From a virus: 28,919 nt of DNA. The DNA lies in IMG/VR virus record IMGVR_UViG_3300013372_000715, positions 1 to 28,919 of that record. One strand, given 5' to 3'. The translations under genes and the position numbers were made by a program. Below the pieces are notes generated by a model that was not told the origin of the DNA, did no database searches, and saw only the letters and a list, made by a program, of their open reading frames with translations. Shown one piece after another: positions 2,104-8,954 of the stretch (its first letter is position 1; the number at the start of each line of letters is the position of its first letter).

Positions 2104-2163
2104 TCGTATGAAGTGAAGAGAAAAGTGTTCTGGACGCGGGTGCGAATCCCGCCAGGTCCACCA
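2104..2163 (+). ncRNA. ssrA: Acceptor piece of a permuted two-piece tmRNA (ssrA)
   Basis: This segment encodes the 3' half of tmRNA. It has a T-arm with stem GCGGG/CCCGC (2136-2140 and 2148-2152) around a 7-nt loop TGCGAAT, then the 3' acceptor strand CAGGTCC (2153-2159), discriminator A2160 and encoded CCA (2161-2163). CAGGTCC pairs over all seven positions with GGGCCTG at 2579-2585, including the G3-U70 wobble that marks alanine acceptors. UCUG (2129-2132) can pair with CAGA (2612-2615), matching the P2 helix position next to GACGCGGG in ordinary tmRNA. The T-loop has G where U55 is normal. The exact 5' end is not resolved; 2104 is the first base after the upstream stop. Being upstream of the coding piece makes the gene circularly permuted. 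Confidence 0.9.
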
Positions 2164-2175
2164 TAAGGAAGTTTA

Positions 2176-2577
2176 ATGCGTATTAATGAAGTGACAGAAT
2201 CAATTCAAGTCCCGAAATATCTATATAAGTGGGTGGACGGAAATCAATTTCAAAAGTATCTTGATGCTAAGAAGTTGCCAGTCAAACGTGGGTATTCCCA
2301 TTACATAGAATCTGAAGGCAAGATGATTCCCGGAAATAGTTTTACTGATAAAGAACATATCAGTCGCTGGACGGGAGATACCTTGGTTAGAATTGATACA
2401 TCAACTATTAATAACGCAATTTATCCAATACCAGGAAATAAGACTTTTATGCGTACCAAGGGGATGACTAGCAATAATTATGATCCTAACGCATGGAAGT
2501 ACGAAAGTGATGAGATTGACGAGTATTGGATAGCCGGCACATTAGATTTATCAAGTGCTGAAATAGTTTCTTTATGA
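2176..2577 (+). CDS. Unknown protein encoded inside the tmRNA intervening segment
   Basis: This 133-aa protein begins 12 bases after the tmRNA CCA, behind a good AAGGAAG ribosome binding site (2165-2171). Its TGA (2575-2577) ends one base before the mature 5' end of the tmRNA coding piece at 2579. It therefore fills nearly the whole intervening segment that permuted tmRNA genes normally discard. The N-terminus MRINEVTE resembles the short prohead-targeting-like tags seen elsewhere in this window (MRAREFLTE), with a possible V-T-E cleavage site. The middle (LYKWVDGNQFQKYLDAKKLP ... PGNSFTDKEHISRW) faintly recalls ADP-ribosyltransferase or RNA 2'-phosphotransferase folds, but I see no decisive catalytic motif and leave the function open. 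Confidence 0.75.
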   Translation: MRINEVTESIQVPKYLYKWVDGNQFQKYLDAKKLPVKRGYSHYIESEGKMIPGNSFTDKEHISRWTGDTLVRIDTSTINNAIYPIPGNKTFMRTKGMTSNNYDPNAWKYESDEIDEYWIAGTLDLSSAEIVSL

Positions 2578-2578
2578 T

Positions 2579-2736
2579 GGGCCTGCATAGTTTCGACAGG
2601 GCAAAGAGTAACAGAGTGGACGATCCGAGAGGCGACTGACGTAATCAGAGCAAAACAGTAGATGCAAACGATTCTACATACGCTCTAGCCGCTTGAGGCT
2701 AAGCCGGGGTTGACAACCTTGTAACCAACAGTCGGG
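2579..2736 (+). ncRNA. ssrA: Coding piece of a permuted two-piece tmRNA (ssrA)
   Basis: The mature 5' end is GGGCCTG (2579-2585), which pairs with the acceptor strand at 2153-2159. The tmRNA D-loop signature TTTCGACAGGG follows (2591-2601). The resume codon GCA at 2664 opens the tag frame A-N-D-S-T-Y-A-L-A-A, with stop TGA at 2694-2696. The tag closely resembles the enterobacterial ANDENYALAA degradation tag. A hairpin CTGA/TCAG lies upstream in the region expected for pseudoknot 1. The piece is much shorter downstream of the tag than one-piece tmRNA, as expected for split forms. It would rescue stalled ribosomes and tag proteins for ClpXP-type proteolysis during infection. The mature 3' end is not fixed by sequence. 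Confidence 0.93.
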
Positions 2737-2762
2737 AAAGGCCTTTAGGGGCCTTTCTTTTT
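2737..2762 (+). terminator. Rho-independent terminator after tmRNA
   Basis: A 7-bp stem AAAGGCC/GGCCTTT (2737-2743 with 2750-2756), a 6-nt loop and a CTTTTT tail form a classical intrinsic terminator closing the tmRNA transcript. The next gene starts 15 bases later, so it needs its own promoter. Confidence 0.85.
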
Positions 2763-2776: not shown

Positions 2777-5485
2777 ATGGACATAAAAGAACTTGAATCA
2801 TTTAGACTTGCTGATGCAGTGAAATTTCACAGCGAACTTAACCCTAAACTTTGGATCGGGGACGACTTAGATCCGATAGTCTATGACAAACTCATGGCTA
2901 TGGCTGAAGACTTCATGTCCGAACTAGGTATAGGAAAACTCAAGGTAGAGGATATTACTATAAGCGGTAGTAACGCGGCCTACTCATACACTCCGCATAG
3001 CGACATAGACCTGCATATACTTGTAGACATGGATAAACTATCTAATGATGAGGTTTATCGTGAGTTGTTCAATGCGAAAAAGAATGAATATAATAATTCA
3101 CATGATCTAAAAATACGTGGTATACCCGTAGAATTATATGTTCAGGATAGTGAACAACCGCACCATAGTCTAGGTGAATATAGTTTACTTAAGAAAGATT
3201 GGATTAGAGTTCCTGTCAGACGTAAAGCCAACTTTGATCAAGACAGAACCAGAGCAAAGTATGAGAAACTAGGTGAGTTGATCGAATTAGCATTGAAATC
3301 AAAAAGATTAAAAGATGTTGAGCGTGTACTAGATATCATTAAGAGATATCGCAAATCAGGATTAGATCAAACGGGTGAATTTGGTCCTGAGAATCTAGCG
3401 TTCAAAGCAATAAGAAAACACGGCTTGTTTAAAGCACTATGGGATTTAAAACAAGAATTACATAGCAAGGAGTTAAGCCTCGCTAATGAGATGGGTGAAG
3501 ATTATGATCCGAACGGCCCGCCACCAGGACCTGAGTTCAAACCTAGTCATAAGAAAATCAAAGGACAAAAGGTCGACCCTACATACAATGTAGGTGAAGC
3601 AAGAAGTAATCCAGAACAAAACGTCAAAGCAGAGTCAGGCATGAAAGAGTTAGATGCTATTGCTGACACTATTAGTGATCCTGAGAACTGGGCTATCAGT
3701 ATGACTAGTGAGCCCAAGTTAGGTATCAACCCGCAAGTAGGTATTAGTGAAGACACACCTAAAGGCATATACTTCTATCCATTGAATTATGTGTTGGGCA
3801 TGATTAAAAGCCGCAGACCTTTACCATGGGGCAATGACTATCCTTATATTCAGTTGTTTCAATATGACCGTTCAGGTGAAATGACAGAACAAACAAAAGT
3901 TGACCCTGCTAAACTAAAACAAGCATTAAGTAAATATTGCCCACCTGAAATAATGCAACAAGCAGAAGAAGATGGTGACTATGATGGTACACCATATTGG
4001 TTCATTTACGATTGTTTAAGCAGATTAGGCGAGAGTGATGAAACCAATATTGTTCGTTGGAATAAAGTATTACGTGACTTAGGCTTTACTAGCGTATATG
4101 ATCCGGGTGAGGGTTGGATTGCTTACAATGAGCCGACACAAGGTGTTGTATTAGATCCAAGAATCATCAAACAACATAAGACAATTGCTAATCGTAAAGA
4201 ATCAAAAGTAATTACACCTGCTCGTATTGCACAGTTACTATTTGACGAAATAGATATGGAACTAGCCAGAAATAGGATATGGCAATTATATGATCCAGAT
4301 GGTAGTAAACTTAGACAGGCTGTTAAGAAATATGCCGAAGACCCTAAATTCAAACCATATATGGGTAAACCGGGCAGTCAAGAATTAGAAGATAAAATAA
4401 AAGGTTATAGATTGTACGGGGCAAGACAATTATCAGATGTTGCTATGGAATGGTATAAAGCACAACAGCAAGTTAATGAAGCATTTGACCAACCCTATAG
4501 ACTTAAATGGGAAGCAGGTGATTACGGGGATGTTGACGCATATGCTAAATTAGATGATGGCACTTATCTAAGTATCATGTTCAACAAGGGATATAACCAA
4601 GACAAAGAAGAAGCATGGAATGTTGAGTTCTTTAGAAACAATAGCCAAGAAGTAACAGGTGAAGGCGATCAACAGCGTGTATTTGCTACTGTGTTGAGTG
4701 CGATTCAAAAATTCATTAAAAAGTACAAGCCTAACAAAGTTATATTTTCAGCAAGCAAAGAAGTTGATGATGGTCAGAAATCACAAAGCAGAGCAAGACT
4801 ATACGATAGTTTAGTTCAACGTTATGCAAGGGCATGGGGTTTCCGTGCTTTCCGTGCTGATGCGGGTAACAAGGTTATATATGAATTAAGTAAGATAAAG
4901 AAAGATGTAGCAGAAGATTCTAGTAACAATATCCCAACCATTGGGATCAATGTAAGAAGTGACGGTGACATTGATTATGCTAGTTTGATAGTTGACGGGA
5001 AAAAGAAATACGAATCTAGAAAAACTGACAGTCTTAGACCATATATAGGTAAAACTGTTGGAATTGTTAGAACCGGCAATGGCCCTGCAGTTGCGATTGG
5101 ACAAGTGACTATAGGTGAACCCATAGTAGTAGATGCAGAAAAGTTCAATAGACTTAGAAAACAACATCTAGTCCCACAAGGTAGTAAATTCGATATTGAT
5201 AGTGATGGTACAAAATATCTGTATCCAATGATTAATCCAGTACGCTGGGATAATGAAAAACCAATAAAAAGTAAGGGTATCGTTTCTAGAAAAATGCAAG
5301 AGCAAGGTGTGGCGGAGGCAAGTGGATATATCCCAAGCGAAAAAGAAAAAAATGATCCACGCTTCAAAACAGCACTAACTATAGATGTGAAGCCTGATAG
5401 TATCAAAAAGAACGCAAAAGCGTTTAGTTGGCTCACAAGCAGAGCAGGCATTCCGCCTCAAGCAAAAACAAACGGCAAAGTTTAA
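2777..5485 (+). CDS. Multidomain protein: nucleotidyltransferase, NEPTQ module, GNAT-like, ASCH-like
   Basis: The 902-aa product starts with a Pol-beta-type nucleotidyltransferase domain, showing GS (64-65) and SDIDL (75-79) with the paired aspartates D76 and D78. A helical part follows to about 270. Residues 276-565 contain a module with NEPTQGVVLDP, a sequence style common in large phage polyvalent proteins. Residues 569-710 (SIMFNKGYN ... IFSASKEVDDG ... SRARLYDSLVQRYARAWGF) look GNAT-like. Residues 714-844 (LIVDGKKKYESRKTDSLRPY) look like an ASCH RNA-binding-type domain. A short tail ends the chain. V-G-E-A (272), V-N-E-A (566), V-A-E-D (711) and V-A-E-A (845) sit at the domain borders and resemble prohead-protease sites. 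This suggests cargo packed in the head and cut into separate proteins. Domain names other than the nucleotidyltransferase are tentative. Confidence 0.8.
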   Translation: MDIKELESFRLADAVKFHSELNPKLWIGDDLDPIVYDKLMAMAEDFMSELGIGKLKVEDITISGSNAAYSYTPHSDIDLHILVDMDKLSNDEVYRELFNAKKNEYNNSHDLKIRGIPVELYVQDSEQPHHSLGEYSLLKKDWIRVPVRRKANFDQDRTRAKYEKLGELIELALKSKRLKDVERVLDIIKRYRKSGLDQTGEFGPENLAFKAIRKHGLFKALWDLKQELHSKELSLANEMGEDYDPNGPPPGPEFKPSHKKIKGQKVDPTYNVGEARSNPEQNVKAESGMKELDAIADTISDPENWAISMTSEPKLGINPQVGISEDTPKGIYFYPLNYVLGMIKSRRPLPWGNDYPYIQLFQYDRSGEMTEQTKVDPAKLKQALSKYCPPEIMQQAEEDGDYDGTPYWFIYDCLSRLGESDETNIVRWNKVLRDLGFTSVYDPGEGWIAYNEPTQGVVLDPRIIKQHKTIANRKESKVITPARIAQLLFDEIDMELARNRIWQLYDPDGSKLRQAVKKYAEDPKFKPYMGKPGSQELEDKIKGYRLYGARQLSDVAMEWYKAQQQVNEAFDQPYRLKWEAGDYGDVDAYAKLDDGTYLSIMFNKGYNQDKEEAWNVEFFRNNSQEVTGEGDQQRVFATVLSAIQKFIKKYKPNKVIFSASKEVDDGQKSQSRARLYDSLVQRYARAWGFRAFRADAGNKVIYELSKIKKDVAEDSSNNIPTIGINVRSDGDIDYASLIVDGKKKYESRKTDSLRPYIGKTVGIVRTGNGPAVAIGQVTIGEPIVVDAEKFNRLRKQHLVPQGSKFDIDSDGTKYLYPMINPVRWDNEKPIKSKGIVSRKMQEQGVAEASGYIPSEKEKNDPRFKTALTIDVKPDSIKKNAKAFSWLTSRAGIPPQAKTNGKV

Positions 5486-5497
5486 CAAAGGATAATC

Positions 5498-6295
5498 ATG
5501 ACCGCACAAAGAATACTAATCATGGGTCTACCAGGATCAGGTAAGACTTATCTAGCACAGCATTTATTAGATCATTTACAAGCAGAAAAGAAACGTGTGC
5601 ATTGGCTAAATGCTGATGATGTTAGAAAGAAATATAACGATTGGGATTTTAGCCACGAAGGACGTATCCGTCAAAGTTTGCGTATGCGTGAACTAGCAGA
5701 CAGTATGACGGACATGGATTATGTCATTTGTGACTTTGTTGCTCCGTTAGTTGAAATGCGTAACAACTTTAAAGCAGATTGGACTATCTGGGTTGATACG
5801 ATTGACAAGGGTCGATTTGACGATACTAACAAAGTCTTTATTCCTCCTGAACAATATGATTTCCGTATTATCGAACAAAACGCAGAAAAATGGAGCGAAT
5901 TCATTTTTGCCCATTTATATGACAACCGTCGTAGACCTGTGTTTGATTGGCAAAAAGAAACAGTACAAATGTTAGGTCGTTGGCAACCATGGCATGAAGG
6001 TCATCGTAAACTATTTGAACGTGCTATCGCTAAGACAGGTCAAGTAGTTATACAGATACGTGACTGTCAAGGTTGGCAGGGTTCCAATCCATTTGCAATT
6101 GACCAAGTAAAGAGTTATATTAAGCGTGACTTGGATATGCTATATCAAGGTCAATATGAAATACAAATTGTTCCAAATATTGTGAACATCACATATGGTC
6201 GTGACGTAGGTTACAAGATTGAGCAAGAGACATTCGATGATGCTACACATTCAATCAGCGCAACAAAAATCCGCAAGGAGATGGGACTTAAGTGA
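5498..6295 (+). CDS. Bifunctional P-loop kinase / HxGH nucleotidylyltransferase
   Basis: The 265-aa protein joins two enzymes. Residues 1-145 are a P-loop kinase with Walker A GLPGSGKT (10-17), NADDVR (38-43) and a DFVAP segment (79-83), resembling adenylylsulfate (APS) kinase. Residues 155-265 are a nucleotidylyltransferase with HEGH (166-169, the HxGH motif) and ISATKIR (253-259, the ISxxxxR motif), as in cytidylyltransferases and NMN adenylyltransferases. Such fusions are usually labelled APS kinase/cytidylyltransferase in phages. With an NAD synthetase gene 1.9 kb downstream, an NaMN/NMN adenylyltransferase role is a reasonable alternative. The ribosome binding site AAAGGA is 13 bases after the upstream stop. 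The substrate is not determined. Confidence 0.8.
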   Translation: MTAQRILIMGLPGSGKTYLAQHLLDHLQAEKKRVHWLNADDVRKKYNDWDFSHEGRIRQSLRMRELADSMTDMDYVICDFVAPLVEMRNNFKADWTIWVDTIDKGRFDDTNKVFIPPEQYDFRIIEQNAEKWSEFIFAHLYDNRRRPVFDWQKETVQMLGRWQPWHEGHRKLFERAIAKTGQVVIQIRDCQGWQGSNPFAIDQVKSYIKRDLDMLYQGQYEIQIVPNIVNITYGRDVGYKIEQETFDDATHSISATKIRKEMGLK

Positions 6296-8147: not shown

Positions 8148-8954
8148 ATGCTACATAAACAAATAACAAAATGGATTAAAGACTATGCCAAGAAAAATGG
8201 CATACAGTCATTAGTGGTGGGAGTGTCCGGCGGTATCGATAGTGCTGTTGTAAGCACATTGTGTGCTAATACAGGATTGATGACCCGTGTTGTGACTATG
8301 CCTATCAGGCAAAATAAAAAGACGCATGAACTTAGTTTGCGTCATTGTGAATGGTTGTTTGAGAGAACCTTCAATAGAAAGTTTGGCGCTACAATTCCCG
8401 GACCTATCATACATGTCAATTTAGACTTGACTAAGACCTTCGCGGTTTTTGAAAAGCAATTGAAACTAGCAGGACATGCCAGTGATTTGGCTTTCGCTAA
8501 TAGTCGTAGCCGATTGCGTATGATGACATTATACCAGATCGCACAAAGCAACAATGGTATTGTTGTGGGTACTGGTAACAAGGTAGAAGATTTTGGTGTA
8601 GGTTTCTTTACCAAGTATGGTGATGGTGGTGTAGATATCAGTCCTATCGCAGACCTAACTAAAACTGAAGTCTGGCAAATGGGCCGTGAGTTGGGTATCA
8701 TTCAGGATATCATAGATGCACCGCCCACAGATGGATTATGGGATGATGGTCGCAATGATGAGGACCAACTTGGTATGAGTTACCCAGATTTAGAAAACGC
8801 TATGCGATTAGATGAGTGGCTCAAAGAAGATGATACGCTACTGCGGCTAGCCATTTCTGATAAAGAGAAAAAACAAGTCAAAAAATACCGTGAAATACGC
8901 GCTAGGAATCTGCATAAAATGAACAGTATTCCCGTTTTCAAAAAGCCTAAATAA
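8148..8954 (+). CDS. nadE: NAD synthetase (ammonia-dependent type)
   Basis: The 268-aa product matches the ammonia-dependent NadE family. It has the PP-loop SGGIDS (27-32), NSRSRLRMMTLYQIAQ, GTGNKVEDFGVGFFTKYGDGGVD and APPTDGLW segments in the usual order. It would convert nicotinate adenine dinucleotide to NAD+ with ATP and ammonia in the cytosol. The length fits the single-domain enzyme; no glutaminase domain is attached. Only a weak TAGG precedes the ATG, and it lies in the arm of the 8089-8139 hairpin, so translation may depend on that structure opening. A phage NadE could rebuild NAD+ when host defences drain it. The upstream kinase/nucleotidylyltransferase may supply an earlier step. 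Confidence 0.9.
   Translation: MLHKQITKWIKDYAKKNGIQSLVVGVSGGIDSAVVSTLCANTGLMTRVVTMPIRQNKKTHELSLRHCEWLFERTFNRKFGATIPGPIIHVNLDLTKTFAVFEKQLKLAGHASDLAFANSRSRLRMMTLYQIAQSNNGIVVGTGNKVEDFGVGFFTKYGDGGVDISPIADLTKTEVWQMGRELGIIQDIIDAPPTDGLWDDGRNDEDQLGMSYPDLENAMRLDEWLKEDDTLLRLAISDKEKKQVKKYREIRARNLHKMNSIPVFKKPK

Follow-up and report, generated by a model that had tools for sequence, protein, structure and literature searches.

Permuted tmRNA genes, whose product is a two-piece tmRNA, are described from Alphaproteobacteria, Betaproteobacteria, Cyanobacteria and some phages (Rfam RF04321 and RF01849-51; PMC11915505, PMC9004378). Those of bacteria number about 12,000 unique sequences in PMC11915505. The acceptor piece comes first, followed by an intervening segment (IVS) and then the coding piece, and the IVS, which is absent from the mature RNA, has hitherto been treated as discarded spacer. 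As contents of an IVS, the available portion of the 2025 tmRNA database paper mentions only a tRNA-Ala gene and a repetitive element, one of each; it also describes group I introns that carry homing endonuclease genes, in tmRNA T-loops (PMC11915505). Among phages, methylophage Melnitz has a two-piece tmRNA for which control by a glutamine riboswitch was proposed, and an ORF in its IVS goes unmentioned in the accessible part of that report (PMC9004378). No report of a protein gene in a tmRNA IVS was found in the open-licence full-text literature or in the available portion of PMC11915505; one reason may be that ARAGORN fails to find tmRNA genes with an IVS longer than about 300 nt.

The DNA analysed here (the window) is an entire 28,919-bp virus record from a tailed phage, among whose proteins are a T4-type terminase and one that binds single strands; as with Melnitz, an aquatic phage bears a permuted tmRNA. 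A preliminary description had placed a permuted two-piece tmRNA at positions 2104-2762 and named a covariance search as a check; the RF04321 (tmRNA_permuted) covariance model matches 2102-2696 over its full length with 119.4 bits (E=4.6e-23; gathering score 47) and recognises both halves (Table 1). The acceptor piece lies upstream of the coding piece, all seven acceptor-stem pairs form, G3-U70 among them, and the tag begins with Ala and ends in ALAA; these features and the model match were among our membership criteria for a permuted tmRNA. The CCA, the 5' acceptor strand, the seven pairs and the tag are where that description had put them, and its P2 pairing, CAGA/UCUG, is probably wrong, the RF04321 register being AGGGCA/UGUUCU. 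Acceptor stem, T-arm, tag and order of the pieces are thus shared with known permuted tmRNAs, as is, by inference only, removal of the IVS from the mature RNA; the differences here are that the IVS is a protein gene and that a Shine-Dalgarno (SD) sequence lies in a helix formed by the IVS ends. The putative terminator was spotted by eye and was not flagged by a pattern scan.

ARAGORN missed the tmRNA gene in the native window sequence and called it as permuted, with tag ANDSTYALAA, after the IVS had been shortened in silico; it recovered all permuted tmRNAs with IVSs below 200 nt and none of the eight with IVSs above 300 nt. The same shortening led to a permuted-tmRNA call at 60 of 60 ORF-bearing loci, with tags ending ALAA in 45, and RF04321 scores at other such loci are 138.6 (L287), 136.0 (L066), 131.3 (L314), 129.9 (L206) and 120.0 bits (L281). 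One could suppose that the ORF is an ordinary gene flanked by relic halves that no longer yield a working two-piece tmRNA, and with expression data absent and the host unknown this cannot be dismissed outright; the full-length RF04321 matches, the seven acceptor pairs and the ALAA tags argue against it, and we regard it as quite improbable. A protein gene nested in a tmRNA gene is also a feature of the group I introns, but these occupy the T-loop, are self-splicing and encode LAGLIDADG endonucleases, whereas the phage cargo lies in the gap between CCA and 5' end. The window T-arm is uninterrupted, so the criterion of a T-loop intron is not met; the Rfam scan gave no Intron_gpI match in the window and reported no intron family there or at the tested ORF-bearing loci, and no endonuclease match was found among ten cargos scanned.

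Table 1. Features of the permuted tmRNA locus (window positions).
Feature	Position	Strand	Basis
Acceptor piece	2104-2163	+	Rfam RF04321 alignment; 5' end approximate
P2 3' strand of acceptor piece, UGUUCU	2126-2131	+	RF04321 alignment
T-arm	2132-2152	+	RF04321 alignment
Acceptor 3' strand, CAGGUCC	2153-2159	+	RF04321 alignment
ACCA (encoded CCA 2161-2163)	2160-2163	+	RF04321 alignment
IVS, 415 nt, from CCA to coding piece	2164-2578	+	RF04321 alignment, sequence, comparison set
Left arm of IVS helix, UAAGGAAGUU	2164-2173	+	Covariation, minimum-energy fold, window pairing
SD AAGGAA, inside left arm	2165-2170	+	Sequence
133-aa ORF filling IVS	2176-2577	+	Sequence; homologs L001-L006; dN/dS vs L001/L004
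Right arm of IVS helix, AGUUUCUUUA, anti-SD-like	2565-2574	+	Covariation, minimum-energy fold, window pairing
UGAU (in-frame UGA stop + 1 nt)	2575-2578	+	Comparison set; precedes predicted RNase P site
Coding piece, including D-loop region	2579-2735	+	RF04321 alignment and ARAGORN; 3' end approximate
Acceptor 5' strand, GGGCCUG	2579-2585	+	RF04321 alignment
P2 5' strand, AGGGCA	2598-2603	+	RF04321 alignment
Tag frame, ANDSTYALAA + UGA	2664-2696	+	RF04321 alignment and ARAGORN
Probable intrinsic terminator, GAAAGGCC / GGCCUUUC + UUUUU	2736-2762	+	By eye

The gene of 133 codons that had been noticed in the IVS takes up 402 of its 415 nt (97%), leaving 13 nt, and the ribosome binding site that had been ascribed to it is an SD directly 3' of the CCA; its stop ends 1 nt upstream of the coding piece. 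It meets our criteria for an ORF-filled IVS in SD and start position, open frame, and a helix with the SD in its 5' strand. Homologs of the protein (L001-L006) are 60-84% identical, and dN/dS against L001 and L004 is 0.09-0.10. In L001 the module forms the beginning of a protein of 452 aa, and the same record contains, roughly 156 kb away, another permuted tmRNA of the ordinary kind. The last three residues, VSL, come from the fixed right-hand element of the IVS: the window protein ends AEIVSL where homologs have AEIVKP, and L001 continues past this point. Because these homologs lie outside IVSs (that of L001 within a larger protein), it is for other cargo families, and not directly for this ORF, that sequence comparison shows selection acting once a gene has entered the IVS. 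The protein has no match in Pfam, PHROG or PDB sequences, its structure model is too weak (pLDDT 55.8) and gave no significant Foldseek match, and a scan for distant relatives gained no further homologs. An ADP-ribosyltransferase identity was an impression by eye that the profile and structure searches do not support.

The locus had been taken for a single curiosity; it belongs instead to a class that recurs, marked by constant flanking elements and a helix that pairs the SD. A count of phage split tmRNAs by IVS length and coding content, such as the preliminary description had proposed for published ones, gave 183 unique IVSs (median 90 nt), nearly all from IMG/VR phages, of which 64, window included, are ORF-filled, meaning that an SD and a start lie 6-16 nt after the CCA and the frame stays open to within 16 nt of the coding piece. 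The set was assembled from four viral-contig scans and a fifth with the right-hand element, followed by a pairing script, and part of it was picked for SD plus ATG or for the right-hand element; the null shuffles only the IVS interior and retains both ends. ORFs fill 37 of the 46 IVSs of at least 150 nt, against about 0.6 expected; by length the figures are 25/30 at 200 nt or more (null mean 0.2), 12/16 at 150-200 nt (0.4) and 10/22 at 110-150 nt (1.6). A T-arm sample not selected on the IVS has SD-led ORFs in 23 of 73 deduplicated loci. In the 64 filled IVSs the start lies 8-14 nt 3' of the CCA, and the stop lies 1 nt before the coding piece in 46 and 12-13 nt before it in 16.

Every ORF-bearing case is a metagenomic contig. 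In the cultured-phage tmRNAs examined (X1, Rb1, QDWS595, QDWS359, XacN1, DLP_6 and Mendera) the IVSs are short, at 31-126 nt, and contain no such ORF, and when cultured phages were searched with the window ORF, the GNAT cargo described below and entire loci, none proved to have an ORF in the IVS. Open frames that arose by chance, or artefacts of assembly, would account for this, but not for an ORF fill far above that of shuffles, for purifying selection on the cargo, or for recurrence of the arrangement across many contigs and samples; for the class this reading is largely refuted already, and we give it next to no credence. Two pattern scans of bacterial genome contigs gave no matches, with a pattern that lacked a positive control. 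Loci with acceptor strand CACCTCC, CATCTCC or CACTTCC in which no coding half appeared downstream were left out; judging by their sequences, each is probably the 3' end of a one-piece tmRNA with an ordinary gene behind it.

The cargos are small and mutually unrelated, from 24-aa membrane peptides to a thioredoxin (L066; 4e-21 in the domain scan), a GNAT-like acetyltransferase and the window protein, and short phage proteins of this kind may escape annotation; the L140 cargo matches CxxCxxCC (1e-6). The GNAT cargo, modelled with pLDDT 86 and with acetyltransferases as top fold matches, occupies a 382-nt IVS at 11 of the 16 loci found, the same right element being visible at four more, and in L353 it forms one domain of a protein of 800 aa. 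A membrane peptide of 22-24 aa, itself conserved, can be encoded in IVSs as short as about 88 nt; it replaces the 133-aa gene in L209, the nearest tmRNA relative of the window (pieces 95% and 91% identical). IVSs with two consecutive ORFs occur in L281, L283, L129 and L321, where similar small membrane ORFs recur in differing combinations. We note that, by eye, a small membrane ORF at 1574-1705, ahead of the tmRNA in the window, resembles the IVS cargo of L045 and L068.

Within the IVS-resident GNAT family dN/dS is 0.11-0.17, in three other cargo families 0.13-0.25 and in the micropeptides about 0.2; the close pair L314/L326 gives 0.89 from very few changes. These estimates (mostly 0.1-0.25) indicate that the cargo is mostly under purifying selection. 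Related phages had been proposed as a test, decayed ORFs between conserved halves being the unfavourable outcome; the halves are kept, and the ORFs are intact and exchanged. L066 and L053 have pieces 99% and 95% identical, yet IVSs of 268 and 61 nt; L154 and L212 have pieces 98% and 100% identical, yet IVSs of 175 and 88 nt; conversely, the IVSs of L317 and L325 are 100% identical, yet their pieces only about 90%. As far as these alignments can tell, then, cargo is exchanged between tmRNAs. Integron and moron cassettes are likewise small genes that can be exchanged at one constant, expressed position; the flanks of the phage slot, by contrast, are halves of a structural RNA.

The IVS ends have a typical left element, UAAGGAAGUUU, and a typical right element, GUUUCUUUAUGAU. 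The latter often encodes the final residues and stop of the cargo, which explains why unrelated cargos end in VSL (19) or VLL (11). With the final four nucleotides (UGAU) excluded, the ends covary in a single register as a helix of at least nine pairs that prolongs the acceptor stem, with most of the standard pair types represented at the inner positions; 8.47 of 9 pairs form, against 5.86 +/- 0.10 in permuted sets, and with one tmRNA per 85% cluster 8.67 against 6.07 +/- 0.28, a value reached by none of 2000 permutations. ACCA and UGAU face each other unpaired between acceptor stem and helix, and the window minimum-energy fold contains both stem and extended helix. Where the IVS bears an ORF, the SD makes up the 5' strand of this helix, opposite a 3' strand that is anti-SD-like. 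ViennaRNA predicts a median SD accessibility of 0.02 in the full precursor and 0.62 in nascent RNA (window, 0.02 and 0.68); in the free IVS it is 0.06, also closed, and processing would therefore not in itself be enough to open the SD.

We consider it fairly probable (about 0.62) that the IVS is a swappable gene slot in a functional phage split tmRNA, in which SD pairing couples cargo translation to tmRNA folding. The anatomy, ORF filling, purifying selection, helix covariation and cargo exchange are established at the level of sequence; processing, translation and regulation are inferred, there being no transcript, protein or processing data. A single transcript would carry acceptor piece, ORF and coding piece, with an IVS-end helix of 9-10 bp continuing the acceptor stem in the precursor. 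Ribosomes would translate the ORF chiefly on nascent RNA, while the right arm has yet to be made, or when they open the weak helix; once the precursor is complete and folded the SD would be shut, and RNase P and 3' processing at the CCA would then separate the mature tmRNA, in its two pieces, from the IVS. Exchange of cargo would proceed probably by homologous recombination between the conserved tmRNA halves. A structural RNA gene would thus double as a small-protein slot, start and stop being set by the RNA's own end elements, a possible reason for phages to carry permuted tmRNAs.

The main rival is that the IVS is merely a place where an expressed operon tolerates insertions, open to any length and without regulation, its SD helix being only the processing helix common to every permuted pre-tmRNA in the set. 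IVSs without ORFs also possess the helix and the conserved UGAU, so that the helix probably served first to fold the precursor, SD pairing being incidental; the cargo is functionally unrelated, and the genes upstream of the window tmRNA overlap in an operon-like run. Less readily explained in this way are the placing of the SD within the helix at fixed spacing, the stereotyped start and stop, and the weaker helix of the ORF class (predicted -2.7 kcal/mol, against -6.0 in other IVSs), and we hold an unregulated site to be possible without favouring it. A more specific form of the SD-coupled slot remains equally tentative: on any one transcript the SD/anti-SD helix would allow either translation of the cargo or maturation of the tmRNA, not both. 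Since the RNase P cut would fall 1 nt after the UGA, ribosomes that sit on the message once it is released might be targeted by tmRNA from that same transcript, which would then yield a self-limiting dose of cargo protein.

Several other features of the window may be mentioned. An Rfam COG2908 RNA (RF02939, 70.9 bits) is found at 159-203, upstream of a 425-aa ORF at 300. Large multi-domain phage proteins with QGVAEGS-like linkers (window 2777-5485, L353 19-2421 and L001 3001-4359) shuffle modules that are nucleotidyltransferase-like, ASCH-like or GNAT-like, some of which are also tmRNA cargo. The N-termini encoded at 2176, 2777, 18299 and 18700 (MRINEVTES, MDIKELE, MRAREFLTE and MRAREFIVE) resemble the T4 capsid-targeting sequence, a hint that these proteins may be packaged. 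Finally, a kinase plus cytidylyltransferase-like (NMNAT-like) protein at 5498-6295 and an NAD synthetase at 8148-8954 possibly represent a phage NAD+ synthesis set.
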